DNA from: Rhodopseudomonas pseudopalustris
Lineage (GTDB): Bacteria > Pseudomonadota > Alphaproteobacteria > Rhizobiales > Xanthobacteraceae
DNA length: 64,000 nucleotides
Direction of reading: 5' to 3'
Assembly: GCF_900110435.1 (NCBI RefSeq)
Contig: NZ_FODT01000001.1
Span: 124,001 to 188,000 of the forward strand
The notes under the pieces were generated by a model. It did not search any database. It saw nothing but the letters and a program-made list of their open reading frames with translations, and was not told the origin of the DNA. A program made the translations under genes and the position numbers. This document shows, one piece after another, positions 55,553-62,967 of the stretch; position 1 is the stretch's first letter, and every line of letters begins with the position of its first letter.

Positions 55553-57019
55553 ATGCCCAGCACGCTTCCCATCTCCAATCCTCCGTCCGTTCGTCGCGGC
55601 TCCCGGCCCGCAGCGGCCCTGGTCCTGCTTTCGTCGCTCGTCCTGTCCGGATGCGCCAGCTTCTCGCCTGATGCAGGCATGGGTGTCGTCGCCGGCGTCG
55701 CCGGCGAAACGATCAAGAAGGACGTCATCTCGATCAGGACCCAAGACGACGCGCTGCGTGCCGATAGCGCCGTGAAGGACCTGCTTCGCCGCACGTTGAC
55801 GGTGGAGAGCGCCGTCCAGGTCGCGCTGCTGAGCAACCGCGGTCTGCAGGCGACCTACAATGAACTGGCGCTCGCCGAAACCGATCTCGTCGGCGACAGC
55901 CTTCCGCCCAACCCGACTTTCTCGATCTCCCGCATCGCCGGCAACGGCGGGCTCGAGATCGAGCGGCGGGTCGTCGGCGACATTCTCGCCCTCGCGACGC
56001 TACCCTTCCGTTCGGAGTTGGCCCGCCAACGCTTCGAGAAGGCGCAGTTGCGTGCCGCCGAAGACACGCTGCGGCTCGCCGCGGACGTCCGCCGCATCTA
56101 CTACAGGACGGTGGCCGCCAACGAACTGGTCGGGCTTCTCACCGACGCCAAGTCGACCGCCGAATCCACCGCCCAGCTTGCGGCGAAGCTCGGCGAGACG
56201 GGGTCGCTCAACAAGCTCGACCAGGCCCGCGAACAGGCGTTCTACGCGGAAACGACAGCCGATCTGGCGACCATGCGACAGGAGGCGGCGAGCTCCCGCG
56301 AGCGACTGATCCGGCTGCTCGGGCTGTGGGGCAGCGACATCGGCATCAAGCTGCCACAGCTTCTGCCCGTTCTTCCCCGTCGGCCGCTATCGCTGCCGCG
56401 AATCGAAGTCGATGCAGTGACCCACCGGATTGATCTGCAGATCGCACGGATCGAACTGGCGGTGTTGGCGAAGTCGCTGAACCTCACGCAAGCCAGCCGT
56501 TTCGTGACGCTGCTCGACGTCGCCGGCATCGAGAGCAAGACCCGCGATCCGGAGGGGCCGCCGTTCCGCGAGCGCGGCTTCGACCTCCAATTCCAGATTC
56601 CGATCTACGACGGCGGCGAGGTCCGCGTTCGACAGGCCGCTGAAACCTACAATCAGTCGTTCAATCTCTTGACCGAGAAGGCCATCAACGTCCGCTCCGA
56701 AGCGCGCAATGCGTTCCGTGTCTATCGTTCGACCTACGACATCGCGGGTCACTACCAGCGCGAAGTCCTGCCGCTGCGCAAGATCATCTCCGAAGAGATG
56801 CAACTACGCTTCGGCAGTATGCAGGTCGACGTCTTCGCGCTCCTCACGGAGGCGCGCCAGCGCATCGCCGCGCTTCGCGCGGCCATCGAGGCCAAGCGAG
56901 ACTTCTGGCTCGCGCAATCCGAACTGCAGACCGCGGTCAACGGCGGCGGTCGCGGCGAATCCCAAACCGAAACCAGAACGTCGGCCACCGCCCAGGCGTC
57001 CGGCGGCGGCGCGCATTGA
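55553..57019 (+). CDS. TolC-family outer-membrane efflux lipoprotein
   Basis: 488 residues. A lipoprotein signal ends LSGC (about 35). Long helices, including LARQRFEKAQLRAAEDTLRLAADVRR and SLNKLDQAREQAFYAETTADLATMRQEA, plus repeated halves match outer membrane efflux proteins (CusC/TolC). No RND pump or fusion protein follows, an unusual arrangement; the next gene is a multicopper oxidase. It probably forms a channel for copper or its complexes with partners elsewhere. Confidence 0.88.
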   Translation: MPSTLPISNPPSVRRGSRPAAALVLLSSLVLSGCASFSPDAGMGVVAGVAGETIKKDVISIRTQDDALRADSAVKDLLRRTLTVESAVQVALLSNRGLQATYNELALAETDLVGDSLPPNPTFSISRIAGNGGLEIERRVVGDILALATLPFRSELARQRFEKAQLRAAEDTLRLAADVRRIYYRTVAANELVGLLTDAKSTAESTAQLAAKLGETGSLNKLDQAREQAFYAETTADLATMRQEAASSRERLIRLLGLWGSDIGIKLPQLLPVLPRRPLSLPRIEVDAVTHRIDLQIARIELAVLAKSLNLTQASRFVTLLDVAGIESKTRDPEGPPFRERGFDLQFQIPIYDGGEVRVRQAAETYNQSFNLLTEKAINVRSEARNAFRVYRSTYDIAGHYQREVLPLRKIISEEMQLRFGSMQVDVFALLTEARQRIAALRAAIEAKRDFWLAQSELQTAVNGGGRGESQTETRTSATAQASGGGAH

Positions 57020-57032
57020 AATGGAGAACCCC

Positions 57033-58412
57033 ATGCTGTCCCGAAGAAACTTCCTCGGCTCCGCAACGGCGCTCGCCAGCGTTGCTGCCGTCACCGGCCG
57101 CGCCCAGGCCGCGACCATTCCGGAGGCCGCGACGATGGAAAAGACGACGATGCAGCCGCCGCTGCATCCGACCAGCGGGCCCGACTACAATCCGGTCGTC
57201 ACACTCAATGGCTGGACGCTGCCCTGGAGGATGAACGGAGATTGGAAGGAATTCCACCTTGTCGCCGAGCCGGTCGAGCGCGAGTTCGCCGAAGGCATGA
57301 CGGCGCATCTCTGGGGCTACAACGGCCAGTCGCCGGGGCCGACCATCGAAACGGTGGAGGGCGACAAGGTCCGCATCTTCGTCACCAACAAATTGCCCGA
57401 GCACACCACCGTGCACTGGCACGGCGTACTCCTGCCGGCCGGGATGGACGGCGTGGGCGGACTAAATCAGCCGCACATCCCGCCGGGCAAGACGTTCGTC
57501 TACGAATTCGAGATGAAGCACAGCGGCACGTTCATGTACCACCCCCATTCGGACGAGATGGTCCAGATGGCGATGGGCATGATGGGGATGATGGTCGTAC
57601 ATCCGCGCGACAAATCCTTCCGGCCAGTCGATCGCGACTTCGTCTTCATCATGAGTTCCTATCTCATCGACCCCGGCACCTATCTGCCGAAGGTCACCGA
57701 GATGACCGACTTCAATATGTGGGCCTGGAACAGCCGGGTATTTCCCGGCATCGATCCACTTCCGGTGCGCCTCGGCGACCGTGTCCGGGTTCGCGTCGGC
57801 AACCTCACCATGACCAACCATCCGATCCATTTGCATGGACACAATTTCGCTGTCAGTTGCACGGACGGCGGCTGGGTGCCGGAGAGCGCGCAGTGGCCTG
57901 AAGTAACGACGGACATTCCCGTCGGCTCAATCCGCGCATTCGACTTCACCGCGGACAACCCCGGCGATTGGGCGTTCCACTGCCACAAGTCGCATCACAC
58001 CATGAATGCCATGGGCCACGACATCCGCAACCTGATCGGGGTGTCGAAGAAGGATCTGGCGAAGGCGGTCGGCAAACTTGCTCCGGACGCGATGGTGATG
58101 GGAACCACCGGCGGCGCCATGGGGGACATGGAGATGCCGCTTCCCGACAACACGCTCCCCATGATGACCGGATCAGGGCAGTTCGGCCCGATCGAGATGG
58201 GCGGAATGTTCACCGTAATGAAGATCCGCGAAGGCCTCGCCCGCGACGACTACAAGGACCCTGGTCCCTACGATTTCCCGAAAGGCACCGTCGCATACGA
58301 GGTCGACGCGCCGCAAAGCGCCGCCCCGCGCCAGGCCAACGACAAGACGAAAGCCAAGGCGGCCGATCCGAAGCCCGTGAAGATGAACATCAAAGGGATG
58401 AAGGGAATGTAG
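57033..58412 (+). CDS. Multicopper oxidase, periplasmic copper resistance
   Basis: 459 residues with a Tat signal (LSRRNFLGSATA). Copper ligands HWHG (in TTVHWHGVL), HPHSD (MYHPHSDE), HLHGH (PIHLHGHNF) and HCHKSHH, with type 1 Met in the last, indicate a laccase-like oxidase. A Met-rich segment near the end (MGDMEMPLPDNTLPMMTGSG) and a Lys-rich tail may bind Cu(I). It likely oxidises Cu(I) to less toxic Cu(II). The start with GGAG 7 bases upstream is chosen over one 4 codons before. Confidence 0.93.
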   Translation: MLSRRNFLGSATALASVAAVTGRAQAATIPEAATMEKTTMQPPLHPTSGPDYNPVVTLNGWTLPWRMNGDWKEFHLVAEPVEREFAEGMTAHLWGYNGQSPGPTIETVEGDKVRIFVTNKLPEHTTVHWHGVLLPAGMDGVGGLNQPHIPPGKTFVYEFEMKHSGTFMYHPHSDEMVQMAMGMMGMMVVHPRDKSFRPVDRDFVFIMSSYLIDPGTYLPKVTEMTDFNMWAWNSRVFPGIDPLPVRLGDRVRVRVGNLTMTNHPIHLHGHNFAVSCTDGGWVPESAQWPEVTTDIPVGSIRAFDFTADNPGDWAFHCHKSHHTMNAMGHDIRNLIGVSKKDLAKAVGKLAPDAMVMGTTGGAMGDMEMPLPDNTLPMMTGSGQFGPIEMGGMFTVMKIREGLARDDYKDPGPYDFPKGTVAYEVDAPQSAAPRQANDKTKAKAADPKPVKMNIKGMKGM

Positions 58413-58463
58413 GCGTTCCCGAGAACCGATCACCTTCCAAACCACATTCCAGAGGAGATCAAG

Positions 58464-58949
58464 ATGAAGACCAAACTGATGGCGGCCGCAGCGGCCTTGG
58501 TCGTGTCGTTTGCGCCCGCCCCACTCCTGGCGGGAGCCGATCACGGCCGCCACACGCACAGCGCGGCGTTCTCGGCCGGCGAGCCGGGCGACGCGAGCAA
58601 GCCTTCACGGATCGTGCAGGTCACCATGACCGAAGCCGACGGGAAAATGCTGTTCACTCCCAGCAGGGTCGAAATCAGGAGTGACGAGCAGATCAAGTTC
58701 GTGCTGCGCAACAGCGGTGAACTCGATCACGAGTTTGTCCTTGCCACCACCGAAGACAACCTCAGACACGCCAGTTCGATGAAGAATGATTCCAACATGG
58801 AGCACGACGATCCCAACGCCAAGTGGCTGGCTCCGCAGAAGACCGGCCATCTCGTCTGGAAGTTCACCAAGGCGGGGGAATTCGAATACGCCTGCCTGAT
58901 ACCCGGTCACCGCGAAGCGGGAATGATCGGCACCGTCATCGTCAAGTAG
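58464..58949 (+). CDS. Cupredoxin-like periplasmic copper protein
   Basis: 161 residues with a signal peptide (about 1-23, ending LLAGA). A plastocyanin/azurin-like fold is marked by His in LDHEFVL and the loop CLIPGHREAGM with Cys, His and Met ligands. A His-rich start of the mature chain (DHGRHTHSA) may bind more copper. It follows the multicopper oxidase and may donate or accept electrons or deliver copper. Confidence 0.9.
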   Translation: MKTKLMAAAAALVVSFAPAPLLAGADHGRHTHSAAFSAGEPGDASKPSRIVQVTMTEADGKMLFTPSRVEIRSDEQIKFVLRNSGELDHEFVLATTEDNLRHASSMKNDSNMEHDDPNAKWLAPQKTGHLVWKFTKAGEFEYACLIPGHREAGMIGTVIVK

Positions 58950-58972
58950 TCCACCCCCCCGAAAGGAACGAA

Positions 58973-59272
58973 ATGACCAACAACAAACTCGCCGCAGCCA
59001 CGCTCGCGTTCGCGCTTCTCTCCTCGTCCGCAGTCCTTGCGCAGGACGCGATGGTCAAGGGCGAAGTGAAAAAGGTCGACGAGGCCGCCAAGAAGATCAC
59101 GCTCAAGCACGACCCGATCAAGAGCCTCGGGATGGATGAGGGCATGACGATGGTCTTCAGAGTTCAAGACCCCGCAATGCTGAAGCAGGTGAAAGCCGGC
59201 GACAAGGTCCAATTCACCGCCGAGCGCGGCAGCGACGGCATCGCCATCACCAAGATCCAAAAGAGTAAGTAG
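58973..59272 (+). CDS. CusF-like copper-binding protein
   Basis: 99 residues with a signal peptide (about 1-23). The small OB fold of CusF is shown by VKGEVKKVDEAAKKITLKHDPI, LGMDEGMTMVFRV and VQFTAERGSDGIAI. The Met and His (LKHDP, GMTMVF) plus neighbours are the Cu(I)/Ag(I) site. It is a periplasmic copper chaperone. An AAAGGA ribosome site precedes it. CusF genes often lie near CusCBA; here only a TolC-like partner is present. Confidence 0.92.
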   Translation: MTNNKLAAATLAFALLSSSAVLAQDAMVKGEVKKVDEAAKKITLKHDPIKSLGMDEGMTMVFRVQDPAMLKQVKAGDKVQFTAERGSDGIAITKIQKSK

Positions 59273-59398
59273 ATCCGGTGATAGCCTCCGCCGTCATCGA
59301 ATAGCCTGACGGCGGAGGCGGGATCGTCTGCACGGCGTCAACGAATGGCGTCGCCACCTTTCCTCACGCCAAAATCCGCACAATCCAGGGGAAGATCA

Positions 59399-59767
59399 AT
59401 GGCCATGAAGACTTCTTTGACGGCCTTCGCGCTGATCGCAGCAACCCTCGGCGCCGGCGTCGCCTACGCCCATCCCGAATTGCAGTCGACCGAGCCCGCT
59501 GCCGGAAAGGCGTCGGCTCCGCCGAAGGAGATCCGCATTCTGTTCAACGAGAACATCATTCCGCGATTTTGCGGGATCGAACTGAAGGGCCAGGCCGGAA
59601 AGGCGATCGCGACCGGAAAGGCAACGGCTGATCCCAGCAACAAGAAGCTGATGATCGTGCCTCTCAAGGATCAGCTCTCGCCCGGCGACTACAAGGTCGA
59701 ATGGCACGCGGTGTCTGACGATACGCACAAGGTCAAGGGCAGCTACTCCTTCAGCGTGGCGCGCTGA
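59399..59767 (+). CDS. copC: CopC, periplasmic copper-binding protein
   Basis: 122 residues. After the signal (about 1-25, cleavage before HPELQ) the mature chain starts with His, the expected first ligand of the Cu(II) site; ASP and DDTHKVKG supply later ligands. RILFNENIIPRF and DYKVEWHAVSDDTH are family motifs. It binds copper for CopD. The stop overlaps copD's ATG (TGATG). Confidence 0.94.
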   Translation: MAMKTSLTAFALIAATLGAGVAYAHPELQSTEPAAGKASAPPKEIRILFNENIIPRFCGIELKGQAGKAIATGKATADPSNKKLMIVPLKDQLSPGDYKVEWHAVSDDTHKVKGSYSFSVAR

Positions 59768-60699
59768 TGATCGATCTCGGGCTCGTCACCGCCCGTTTCA
59801 TCCACTACGCGGCATCCACTGCGCTCGCCGGAATCGCGTTCTTTCCGATCTATGCTTGTGCCGGAGGCGAGCCCCCGGAGCTCGCCCGCTGGAGAAACAA
59901 GCTGATGGTCTGGTCGGCGATCCTCGCTCTGATCAGCGGCCTCGGCTGGTTCGCCTTCGCTGCAGCCAATATGAGCGGCGGGCTGGCGGACGTCGCGGAT
60001 TTGGAAGTCATCGCGTCAGTCATTCGCGACACCGGCTTCGGCGGCGTCTGGGCGGCGCGCATGGTCGTCGCGACTGTACTGGTCGCCACGCTCCTCCGGC
60101 GCTCGTCGCGGGCGGGCGCCGACCGGGATAAGGTGACGTTCTTACTCGCCGCCGGACTCCTCGCCTCCCTCGCGGGCGCCGGTCACAGCCAGATGGCGGA
60201 GGGCTGGGCGAGCGCGCTGCATGTCACCGCGGACGCGGCGCATCTTCTCGCGGCGGGAGCCTGGCTCGGTGGACTTGCTCCGCTCGGTTTCATCCTGCGG
60301 CGCGGCGCGGCGACGCCGGCGAGACCAACCTGCGTCGATATCGATAGCGTGCTGATACGTTTTTCCGGAATGGGATACGTCGCCGTGGCGACGCTGATCG
60401 GAACCGGACTTGTGAACAGCTGGTTCCTCGTCGGATCGATCTCCAGCCTGCTTCACAGCACCTACGGGCAAATCCTCATAGCGAAGCTGGCGCTGTTCGC
60501 AAGTATGCTCGCGCTCGCTGCGGCGAACAAATTCTGGTTGATGCCGGCGCTGGAAGCGTCGCGAAGGCGCGATTTGGACGGATCCGACCTCTGGCGACGC
60601 AGACTTCGAACCCATGTGCTGGGCGAGCAAAGTCTGGGCCTGCTGGTCCTGCTGAGCGTGAGCGTTCTGGGAACGATACGACCCGCGATCGGACAATGA
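59767..60699 (+). CDS. copD: CopD, inner-membrane copper transport protein
   Basis: 310 residues and about eight membrane helices. Conserved His residues sit in ARFIHYAAS, AGAGHSQM and ALHVTADAAHLLAAGAWLGGL, the family core. It likely moves copper across the inner membrane in cooperation with CopC, with which it is translationally coupled. Last gene of the copper operon, ending at a bidirectional hairpin. Confidence 0.93.
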   Translation: MIDLGLVTARFIHYAASTALAGIAFFPIYACAGGEPPELARWRNKLMVWSAILALISGLGWFAFAAANMSGGLADVADLEVIASVIRDTGFGGVWAARMVVATVLVATLLRRSSRAGADRDKVTFLLAAGLLASLAGAGHSQMAEGWASALHVTADAAHLLAAGAWLGGLAPLGFILRRGAATPARPTCVDIDSVLIRFSGMGYVAVATLIGTGLVNSWFLVGSISSLLHSTYGQILIAKLALFASMLALAAANKFWLMPALEASRRRDLDGSDLWRRRLRTHVLGEQSLGLLVLLSVSVLGTIRPAIGQ

Positions 60700-60989: not shown

Positions 60990-61177
60990 AGCAATCTCCG
61001 TCAAGTCATGGTGGACGATGGTTCGTGGATGGAGCGCGGTCCGCCAAACAACACCGGCGCCAAAACGGTCGCAGTTAAGCGATCCCCCGCGAAAGCTCGG
61101 CCTGTGCAGACATGTTACACTTCCTCGCGGCTCACTCGGGAAGCGCCACGGCGCCCCCCGTCAGGTGCTCAAAAGTG

Positions 61178-61206
61178 AATTCGTGAAGGAGAGCAGTTCG
61201 GTTACA
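61178..61206 (-). promoter_or_regulatory. ECF-type promoter 2, TGTAACC-N16-CGAATT
   Basis: On the minus strand TGTAACC then 16 bases and CGAATT. The same 13 defined bases and spacing precede the ECF sigma gene. It would give a transcript with a leader of about 180 bases before the His-rich gene. Resembles the GTAACC/CGAA promoter of Caulobacter SigF, from memory. Confidence 0.75.
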
Positions 61207-61249
61207 GCCGTTCGAAAGAATATCCCGGCGATTGCCGATATCGTTGCGC

Positions 61250-61882
61250 TCACCAGCGCAGCAGCCGGGGGCCGAGCAATGCGCCGGCCAGCGTGCACAG
61301 CACCACCGTCCCGCCGTACCAGACGGAAATGAATGCAACGCTCTCGGCGGCGCAGTGGAGTGCATAGCCCATAGCGCTGACGCAGCCTGCGACCAGACCG
61401 GACACTGCGCCCGCCCTCACCAGATCTGTCGGGGCCATCCGGCGCACCGCCCAGATGATGGTGGCGAACGGAACAATCGCGATGACCGGGATCGACACCA
61501 GGCATTCAATCCATTCGTCGCCGACGATCTCGGTCCTCCAGTGCGACATCGGCGTCAGGGAAAGCGCGCCGATCGCGAGCCCCATCACCGCGAGCAACGG
61601 AAGCGATAGCAGCGCCAGTGACACCCGACGCTCACCACCCGGTCGCGCCAGCCGACTTAGGACAATCGATGCCGGGATGAGGATGGGGAGCATCAGCCCG
61701 ATCTTCAGCAACAGATACGGCAGTGAGCGGTCGAGGTCCGGGCGCAGCCCCATCACCGCCAGCACAAGGCAGGCGGCGAGCAGGACGCCCCCAGCAATGA
61801 CGAGCACCAGCGTTCGGCCGGCCGGCCGGCGAACGGGCTCGACATTGGTTCCGAGCATGGCGATGAGATCGTCGGTCTTCAT
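61250..61882 (-). CDS. nrsF: NrsF-like (DUF1109) membrane anti-sigma factor
   Basis: 210 residues and six membrane helices. Family DUF1109 is indicated by MKTDDLIAMLGTNVEPVRR at the N-terminus, conserved Cys in WIECLVS and ALHCAAES, and GGTVVLCT. In Caulobacter NrsF inhibits SigF until heavy-metal exposure alters paired cysteines. The 3' end of the sigma gene overlaps its start by 4 bases, so the two are coupled. Confidence 0.9.
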   Translation of the reverse strand: MKTDDLIAMLGTNVEPVRRPAGRTLVLVIAGGVLLAACLVLAVMGLRPDLDRSLPYLLLKIGLMLPILIPASIVLSRLARPGGERRVSLALLSLPLLAVMGLAIGALSLTPMSHWRTEIVGDEWIECLVSIPVIAIVPFATIIWAVRRMAPTDLVRAGAVSGLVAGCVSAMGYALHCAAESVAFISVWYGGTVVLCTLAGALLGPRLLRW

Positions 61883-62430
61883 GACAGTTTCTCCCGTCCG
61901 ATCATCGCGGCCAACGCCTTCAAACCGCGATGGACGCTTACTTTGACTGAAGACTCGCTCATCTTGAATTTAGTCGCCGTCTCGGCGACGCTCAGACCGT
62001 CCAGCTTGACGGCCTGCACAGCCGTCCGCATCTTCTCCGGAAGTCCCGCCATCAGCCTGCTGAGATCGATGGAACTCTCGACGCCGGCGGCGGCGTCCTC
62101 CTCCACCAACGGATCGATGCCGTCGATTCGGACGTCAGACATCGACCCCCGGGTATGCCGCAGGTGGTCGATCAGCTTGTAGCGCGCAATCGCGCGCACC
62201 CAGGGCGTCAGCAACTGCGCCGGGTCATAGGTGTGGCGCCTCATGTGAATGGCCATCAAGGCTTCTTGAACAAGGTCCTCGGCCTCTGTCGCGCTGCGGC
62301 CGATTCTGGCGAGCTTGCCCCGGTAATAGACGCGCAGATTGCCGCTCAGCCGCGACAGCAGTTCGCGGTGCGCAGCGGCCTCGCCGCGCAGGCTTGCCAG
62401 CATCAGCGGCTTCAGCTCGTCCTCGACCAT
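61879..62430 (-). CDS. sigF: ECF sigma factor (SigF-like)
   Basis: 183 residues. Region 2 includes RVYYRGKLARIGRSATEAEDLVQEALMAIHMRRHTYD and WVRAIARYKLIDHLR, and region 4 ends VAETATKFKMSESSVKVSVHRGLK. The DUF1109 membrane protein is encoded directly downstream and should hold it inactive. A TGTAACC-N16-CGAATT promoter lies about 25 bases upstream of the ATG, consistent with autoregulation. Metal stress is the inferred signal. Confidence 0.92.
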   Translation of the reverse strand: MVEDELKPLMLASLRGEAAAHRELLSRLSGNLRVYYRGKLARIGRSATEAEDLVQEALMAIHMRRHTYDPAQLLTPWVRAIARYKLIDHLRHTRGSMSDVRIDGIDPLVEEDAAAGVESSIDLSRLMAGLPEKMRTAVQAVKLDGLSVAETATKFKMSESSVKVSVHRGLKALAAMIGREKLS

Positions 62431-62891
62431 CTCAGCGCCCTAACAACCTCAATTCGGGCGGAACCGCAGCTTGGTTACATCTCACGCAGGAAAATCGGGC
62501 CGACGCCTCGGCGTTTTCCATGCGCAATGTGCGGTCGCGTCCTGGAGGGCCTCAACGAGGTCAAAGGGCCGACTACCCCCGCCGGTAGCGGGCCCGATCC
62601 GGTTGACGGTTCTGCGGAGGTCGGCGGTGAAGCGAGAGGTTCTTTTCCCTCGCCGATCGGCGGACGCGGAATGTCAGAGCAAACGGCTATGCTCGAAGAA
62701 GCGTCGGCAATGCGAGAGGGATGAAACGGGCCATCCAGCGGAGCGGAAGCCCTCAGCGGACCGAAGCATTTCGACAGGGCCCGGCAGGTGTCTGATTCGT
62801 AGAGCGCCCCGGTCGCCTCGATGCCGCAATCGCATCAGGGGCGTCACCGCGAGAGAACCGAACGACCAACCGTTCGCAATCTGTTTCGGAA
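62431..62891. other. Intergenic stretch, only the sigF promoter seen
   Basis: About 460 bases between sigF and the tRNA gene. The first 50 carry the ECF-type promoter. No coding frame of convincing composition, no terminator. The longest frames overlap the tRNA and carry its translated sequence, so they are artefacts. Confidence 0.5.
62453..62479 (-). promoter_or_regulatory. ECF-type promoter 1, TGTAACC-N16-CGAATT
   Basis: Minus strand TGTAACC at the -35 position, 16 bases, CGAATT at -10, about 20 bases before the sigF start. Identical in all 13 bases and in spacing to the element at 61178-61206. Confidence 0.8.
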
Positions 62892-62967
62892 TGGTGCCCA
62901 GGGGCGGGATCGAACCACCGACACTGCGATTTTCAGTCGCATGCTCTACCAACTGAGCTACCTGGGC
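62892..62967 (-). tRNA. tRNA-Phe (GAA)
   Basis: 76 bases including encoded CCA. The acceptor stem GCCCAGG pairs with CCTGGGC, the D arm is GCTCAGTTGGTAGAGC, the anticodon loop CTGAAAA gives GAA, and the T arm GGTTCGATCC is standard. It charges phenylalanine. Single tRNA, minus strand. Confidence 0.98.

Follow-up and report, generated by a model that had tools for sequence, protein, structure and literature searches.

ECF16 sigma factors are known as switches for metal and oxidant stress, and their outputs are poorly understood. The promoter motif of the group has been published as tGTAACc-N16-CGAA (PMC3420878). Work on Caulobacter mapped SigF promoters by 5' RACE for two operons, described the SigF promoter as GTAACC-N16-CGAA, named the anti-sigma factor NrsF and reported that its cysteines are needed (PMC3511200); the sigma-F genes of this bacterium are reported not to respond to ROS. 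Copper has been described as inducing the Caulobacter SigF regulon under every condition tested, and a sigF mutant as copper-sensitive (PMC8224329).

The sigF-nrsF pair and its promoters

We analyzed a stretch of 64,000 nucleotides from Rhodopseudomonas pseudopalustris (hereafter the window), in which a preliminary description had proposed a sigma/anti-sigma pair of the Caulobacter SigF/NrsF kind and had pointed to a similar promoter in that bacterium. Both points are borne out (Table 1). The sigma factor carries ECF domains 2 and 4 (Pfam) and scores 313 bits against NCBIfam NF009191 (cut-off 171). An NrsF/DUF1109 anti-sigma gene adjoins it, and the two frames overlap by four bases; this gene is over the Pfam cut-off and under that of the NCBIfam equivalog NF042994 (4.4e-28, 98 of 300 bits). 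Cys127 and Cys177 of NrsF, each conserved in 59 of 60 aligned relatives, are counterparts of the two key Caulobacter cysteines. The published ECF16 promoter is present before sigF, and the window motif agrees with the GTAACC-N16-CGAA published for Caulobacter (PMC3511200, PMC3420878). Domains, motif and cysteines thus support a predicted ECF16/SigF-NrsF class for the window unit, the likeness to Caulobacter being drawn from published descriptions.

Table 1. Features of the sigF, peptide and copper genes in the window
Feature	Position	Strand	Evidence or remark
ECF16/SigF-type promoter of sigF-nrsF (putative), TGTAACC-N16-CGAATT	62451..62479	-	motif scan of window and genome; TGTAACCAAGCTGCGGTTCCGCCCGAATT
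sigF, ECF sigma factor, 183 aa	61879..62430	-	Pfam Sigma70_r2 3.6e-10, r4_2 6.8e-12; NCBIfam NF009191 4.2e-94
nrsF, membrane anti-sigma factor, 210 aa	61250..61882	-	Pfam PF06532 6.2e-55, over cut-off
ECF16/SigF-type promoter of peptide unit (putative)	61178..61206	-	motif scan; TGTAACCGAACTGCTCTCCTTCACGAATT; sole other exact genome copy is that of sigF
pepA remnant, 12-codon ORF MSAQAELSRGIA, within pepB leader	61075..61113	-	alignment with two AAP120 copies and R. palustris MAG
pepB, His-rich exported peptide (predicted), 80 aa	60747..60989	-	two [HH/HR]-Y-x-GGPK units; GGAG ribosome site shortly before the ATG
Copper cluster, convergent with pepB	55553..60699	+	Pfam; NCBIfam CopC/CopD over cut-off
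Outer membrane efflux protein	55553..57019	+	Pfam
Multicopper oxidase	57021..58412	+	Pfam
Cupredoxin	58464..58949	+	Pfam
CusF	58970..59272	+	Pfam
CopC	59345..59767	+	Pfam; NCBIfam over cut-off
CopD	59767..60699	+	Pfam; NCBIfam over cut-off

Two identical TGTAACC-N16-CGAATT elements had been claimed on the minus strand. Our scan found all 13 defined bases and the 16-base spacing at both, while the sequences of the spacers differ; the position given earlier for the peptide element was exact, and that of the sigF element started two bases off (62453 instead of 62451). Allowing up to 2 mismatches, the window holds three matches, the third at 1393-1421 with 2 mismatches, compared to an average of 0.41 and a maximum of 2 in 100 shuffled windows. 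In the whole genome (5,270,741 bases, 28 contigs), the exact motif occurs twice, at these two promoters, when about 0.03 copies are expected from the base composition of the window and the reversed control pattern gives 0 exact matches, in agreement with the earlier judgment that a chance match was unlikely. The shorter GTAACC-N16-CGAA has 8 exact genome sites and, with up to 1 mismatch, 191 against 234 for its reversed control. Hence the long motif alone carries information, weaker SigF sites being inseparable from chance, and a wider SigF regulon sought with looser motifs was rejected. The regulon that can be read from the motif is two transcription units, as small as had been proposed. The sigF ATG (62430) lies 20 nt from the -10 box of its promoter, and the pepB ATG (60989) 188 nt from its own, leaving a long leader. 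Both sites would act as ECF16/SigF-type promoters.

The same genome encodes a second sigma/NrsF pair (G000:C9:211918-212526; L065); where the sigma frame of this pair begins, GTAACA-N15-CGAATT resembles a promoter. This element fits the EcfF class, whose published motif is GTAAC(g,a)-N14-15, and no EcfF-type site with 0-1 mismatch was found in the window. Two ECF16-type systems that differ in their promoters thus seem to be present in the genome, and cross-talk between them is possible. Among 16 genomes of the genus, 12 encode NrsF, and three of these (the window genome, AAP120 and a R. palustris MAG) encode two copies. TGTAACC-N16-CGAA sites and pepB were found in the same three genomes only, so that 3 of 16 combine the site and pepB with a second or island NrsF. 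Both NrsF genes of AAP120 lie in an island, and the core copy was not seen there. This genome has seven sites within 17.4 kb, preceding a sigF, two pepA-type units, another pepB and, by eye, an outer membrane efflux component, an ATP-synthase-like operon and an OpgC-like protein.

Peptide genes behind SigF-type promoters

The preliminary description had named as target a His-rich peptide beside a copper operon, and the gene that we call pepB matches it: a small ORF adjoining the copper cluster, with a start that resembles a signal peptide (by eye and by a crude rule), two H-x-Y-x-GG units in the alignment, and 6 His and no Cys among its last 57 residues. No Pfam or NCBIfam family matched it at E 0.001. 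The frame is intact and 81% identical to a copy in AAP120 that follows the same promoter. Between promoter and pepB, the leader aligns with the start of another peptide gene, pepA, of which a frame of 12 codons is left here while the greater part has been lost; no intact pepA was found in the window genome. As pepA has decayed, pepB is the first intact gene behind the peptide promoter. No exact SigF site was found at the copper cluster in the window scan. The MNIO gene (PF05114) gave 0 matches in the genome, in a search that detects it in Caulobacter.

The sigF, peptide and copper genes lie in a block of about 30 kb (32800-62890) which also holds sulfur-oxidation genes (a SoxA/TsdA-type cytochrome, a 5'-nucleotidase C-terminal/SoxB-like protein, a Mo oxidoreductase, two FCSD-type proteins and DsbD). 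It is absent from two relatives, in which the core block ending at about 32.8 kb sits within about 0.5 kb of the tRNA-Phe gene (62892-62967); in a third relative, about 7 kb of different DNA stand in its place. No integrase was identified, and the window has no second copy of the tRNA end.

TGTAACC-N16-CGAAYT is present in 59 of 296 genomes of the family. We analyzed 40 stretches, 37 of them chosen for their sites, and considered small ORFs lying no more than 330 nt behind a site, with a crude signal-peptide rule. A YxGGP[KR] motif was found in 27 of 40 predicted exported small ORFs behind a site compared to 3 of 48 elsewhere in the same loci (Fisher p 7.5e-10). These 27 ORFs comprise 24 of pepA type and 3 pepB. 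After the signal peptide, 15 of the 24 pepA-type peptides carry TITDKSYWPNEAR, and in 21 the motif lies within the last 15 residues. It is flanked by Cys in 9, while 15 lack a Cys pair; many of the pepA peptides have no metal ligands, so that YxGGPK may in itself be unrelated to metal. An ideal equivalence between the Cys pairs of pepA and the His pairs of pepB was rejected: the positions (C -2/+11 and H -2/+10) are close, not identical, and the Cys pair is missing from those 15 peptides. Other SigF-site targets are, by eye, of metal type (CusF-like, Met-rich). Six pepA-type peptides gave no Pfam match except one at E 0.082, and five of them together with pepB gave none in NCBIfam.

The place directly behind nrsF is often occupied by a SigF-type site, in 20 of 28, 8 of 12 and 5 of 5 SigF genes in three sets. 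In the 28-gene set, 26 have a site before sigF, a count biased by the choice of this set by site. The 12 loci are plasmid loci chosen by SigF protein (12 of the best 15 among 210 matching plasmid records; H6, H9 and H12 were left out), and some are the same replicons as our genomic regions (OM5, BAL398). An exact site stands within 120 nt before sigF in 9 of them, and a site-driven YxGGP[KR] ORF was found in 5; in BTAi1, a sixth such ORF follows a one-mismatch site (TGTAACT). The peptide is absent at the two Methylobacterium-type loci and those of Microvirga, Sphingomonas and Pseudomonas K-62. At each of the 11 annotated plasmid loci (the twelfth has no annotation), metal genes are found no more than 7 kb away, and 9 of the 12 plasmids are typed conjugative. 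The SigF system looks like an exchangeable metal-resistance module.

Some other sites deserve mention. At the Methylobacterium-type loci L249 and L255, TGTAACG-N16-CGAA precedes ORFs with TSGGPAL or TSGGPAF at their ends, which may be remote variants of the GGP peptides. On plasmid pMR68 of Pseudomonas sp. K-62 (L245), an exact SigF-type site before a merT-family gene suggests SigF-controlled mercury transport. Among the matches listed, SigF-type sites at L207, L208, L209, L211 and L231 precede small membrane ORFs sharing LPCLAMCALHLCS, an unnamed candidate target.

The pepB family and its FixK/FNR boxes

Of the 296 family genomes, 20 encode pepB, and the 77 named loci that carry it are all from Bradyrhizobium, Afipia, Rhodopseudomonas or related Xanthobacteraceae or alphaproteobacterial bins. 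All 67 extracted peptides have two Y-x-GG units. Over the 134 units, His is present at -2 in 97%, at -1 in 99% and at +10 in 92%, and Pro at +4 in 99%. Searches with 16 members against Pfam (E up to 1) gave weak matches only, the best at 0.0044 (DUF3761, 2 members), and solved structures gave one chance-level match (E 0.5). In the open literature, where such sequences often sit in figures, we found no paper describing YxGGPK peptides.

At 73 of the 77 named loci, pepB is far from any sigF-nrsF. SigF, NrsF and an exact site come together at only 4, and a general control of pepB by SigF was therefore rejected; at two of the 4 (BTAi1 plasmid and B. japonicum in8p8), sigF or pepA rather than pepB is the gene served by the sites. 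A SigF promoter stands before only 3 pepB genes and one disrupted copy. No EcfF-type site was found before pepB elsewhere (0 of 71). Upstream of most members we found TTGA-N6-TCAA, the FixK-type consensus (PMC5582078). It is present in 53 of 67 non-redundant regions of 200 nt (L067-L143), or 53 of 65 without two AAP120 pepA genes read as pepB, a few misplaced starts remaining in the set; shuffles gave 0.43 on average and 3 at most, and every other spacing from 2 to 11 gave 0 or 1 region. The window pepB has no such box within 400 nt, nor the looser TTG-N8-CAA, and the box is also absent from both intact SigF-linked copies of AAP120 and from its disrupted copy. Conversely, the MAG pepB beside a SigF-driven pepA, the second MAG copy and the third AAP120 copy have an FNR box and no SigF site. 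On pepB, SigF site and FixK/FNR box are thus mutually exclusive in the data examined, other copies having neither strict box.

In a tree of 70 peptides (85 columns, midpoint-rooted, most forks weak), the SigF-linked copies fall among the FNR-boxed ones. This is consistent with SigF control arising within an FNR-boxed family, and the tree is too weak to prove the direction. The distribution of sites and boxes suggests a switch of pepB from low-oxygen to metal-stress control, whose direction we infer. Copper-type genes were found at 19 of 67 pepB loci (at least 14 kb) and at 0 of 20 arbitrary stretches drawn from 5 genomes, two of which (G304 and G063) have no pepB match (p 0.005). The link between pepB and copper is real, but for a minority of loci.

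Proposed mechanism and known systems

We consider it likely that the unit is an ECF16-type switch in which stress makes NrsF release SigF to transcribe sigF-nrsF and pepB, that PepB is exported and binds metal, and that pepB took over the slot of pepA. NrsF would hold SigF at the membrane until stress acts on its two conserved cysteines; by analogy with Caulobacter SigF (PMC8224329, PMC3511200), from which we read both a metal or redox trigger and a role of copper, this could be a soft metal such as copper, or an oxidant. Freed SigF would then transcribe from the two identical promoters, its own, giving more SigF and NrsF, and that of pepB. The HH-Y-x-GGPK-T-x-x-P-HH(M) units of exported PepB are probable periplasmic ligands of copper or a similar ion, and the peptide would buffer copper there, beside the Cop/Cus proteins. 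Another YxGGP[KR] peptide predicted to be exported, pepA, normally occupies the slot behind nrsF; in the window this gene has decayed, and pepB would have taken its promoter. The signal may also be an oxidant instead of a metal, as published inducers differ between relatives: EcfF responds to H2O2, Caulobacter SigF does not respond to ROS, and RpoE7 responds to none of H2O2, cadmium and chromate.

The peptides could instead be signaling or feedback partners that report the state of the envelope or help NrsF to rebind SigF, the His of pepB being incidental. The slot with its own SigF site directly behind nrsF in many loci would fit such a role, as would a motif conserved without metal-type residues (the Cys-flanked minority of pepA-type peptides). 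Against it, pepB is mostly remote from any sigF-nrsF, its His pairs are near-invariant, and other SigF-site targets are of metal type by eye, so that we find this reading unlikely. It is very improbable that the site of the peptide unit repeats the promoter of sigF by chance or as a dead copy, before a decaying pepB transcribed from elsewhere or never: the adjoining pepA has decayed and one AAP120 pepB is disrupted, yet the window frame is intact with a ribosome site and close to the AAP120 copy behind the same promoter, and the 13 motif bases are all kept while the spacers differ.

That the unit answers to the second, EcfF/OsrA-type ECF16 pair or to both pairs, with oxidants rather than copper as signal, appears quite unlikely to us. 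Such a pair exists in the genome, and B. japonicum EcfF is H2O2-induced, with cross-talk between paralogues suggested there (PMC3420878). The second pair, however, has a promoter type of its own, of which the window has no site at 0-1 mismatch, and a single NrsF is found in 9 of 16 genus genomes, none of which has a TGTAACC-N16-CGAA site. A SigF-driven PepB that probably binds metal is our preferred reading.

Promoter, regulon and Caulobacter parallel bear out the preliminary description; new are the peptide family, the conserved order promoter-sigF-nrsF-promoter-peptide, the decay of pepA and the proposed exchange of FixK for SigF control. The chances seem even to us that YxGGP[KR] peptides form an unnamed ECF16 output class of Nitrobacteraceae-type bacteria, in the place that bufferins take elsewhere, and that pepB moved from FixK/FNR to SigF by promoter capture. 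The R. palustris MAG, in which pepA stands behind the SigF site and the adjoining pepB still has its FNR box, would be intermediate-like. Such recurrent, tiny exported peptides, defined by their promoter, are concrete candidates for a part in feedback or in the handling of metals in the periplasm that would, unlike that of bufferins, dispense with the MNIO enzyme. A family FixK/FNR-boxed in most members and SigF-controlled in few would make a small and experimentally accessible example of regulatory rewiring; both arrangements of pepB are found within one genus and, in AAP120, within one genome.

Bufferins, the MNIO-modified copper-binding peptides, are likewise small, exported, part of SigF/NrsF-type regulons and linked to copper, but they need the MNIO enzyme and Cys residues (PMC12452194). 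PepB has no Cys and does not belong to the Cys-containing precursors (DUF2282 or Buf2), with no Pfam family at E 0.001, and the genome has no PF05114; its membership in the bufferins was rejected. Sinorhizobium meliloti RpoE7-EcfR7 is also an ECF16 system, with mapped promoters TGTAACA-N..-CGAAT and a small plasmid-borne regulon, but it governs a DUF692/DUF2063 operon, and none of H2O2, Cd and chromate induced its fusions in the published study (PMC6180224). Bradyrhizobium japonicum EcfF-OsrA shares with the window unit the ECF16 group, the anti-sigma family, autoregulation and two cysteines, whereas its promoter is GTAAC(g,a)-N14-15-(c,t)CG(t,a), its described inducer is H2O2 and its described targets are MetSO reductases and hypotheticals (PMC3420878); by promoter, it is the other pair of the genome that resembles it. 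The outputs of Caulobacter crescentus SigF are two DUF2282/DUF692/DUF2063 operons and MsrPQ (PMC3511200, PMC8224329), while the window unit has one His-rich YxGGPK peptide without cysteine, in a genome without an MNIO gene, where operons of the Caulobacter DUF2282/DUF692 type are therefore impossible in full. The window unit nevertheless resembles the published SigF-NrsF system in its sigma factor, in a six-TM NrsF with two key cysteines, in GTAACC-N16-CGAA, in its small regulon and, as we predict, in a response to metal (PMC3511200, PMC8224329).
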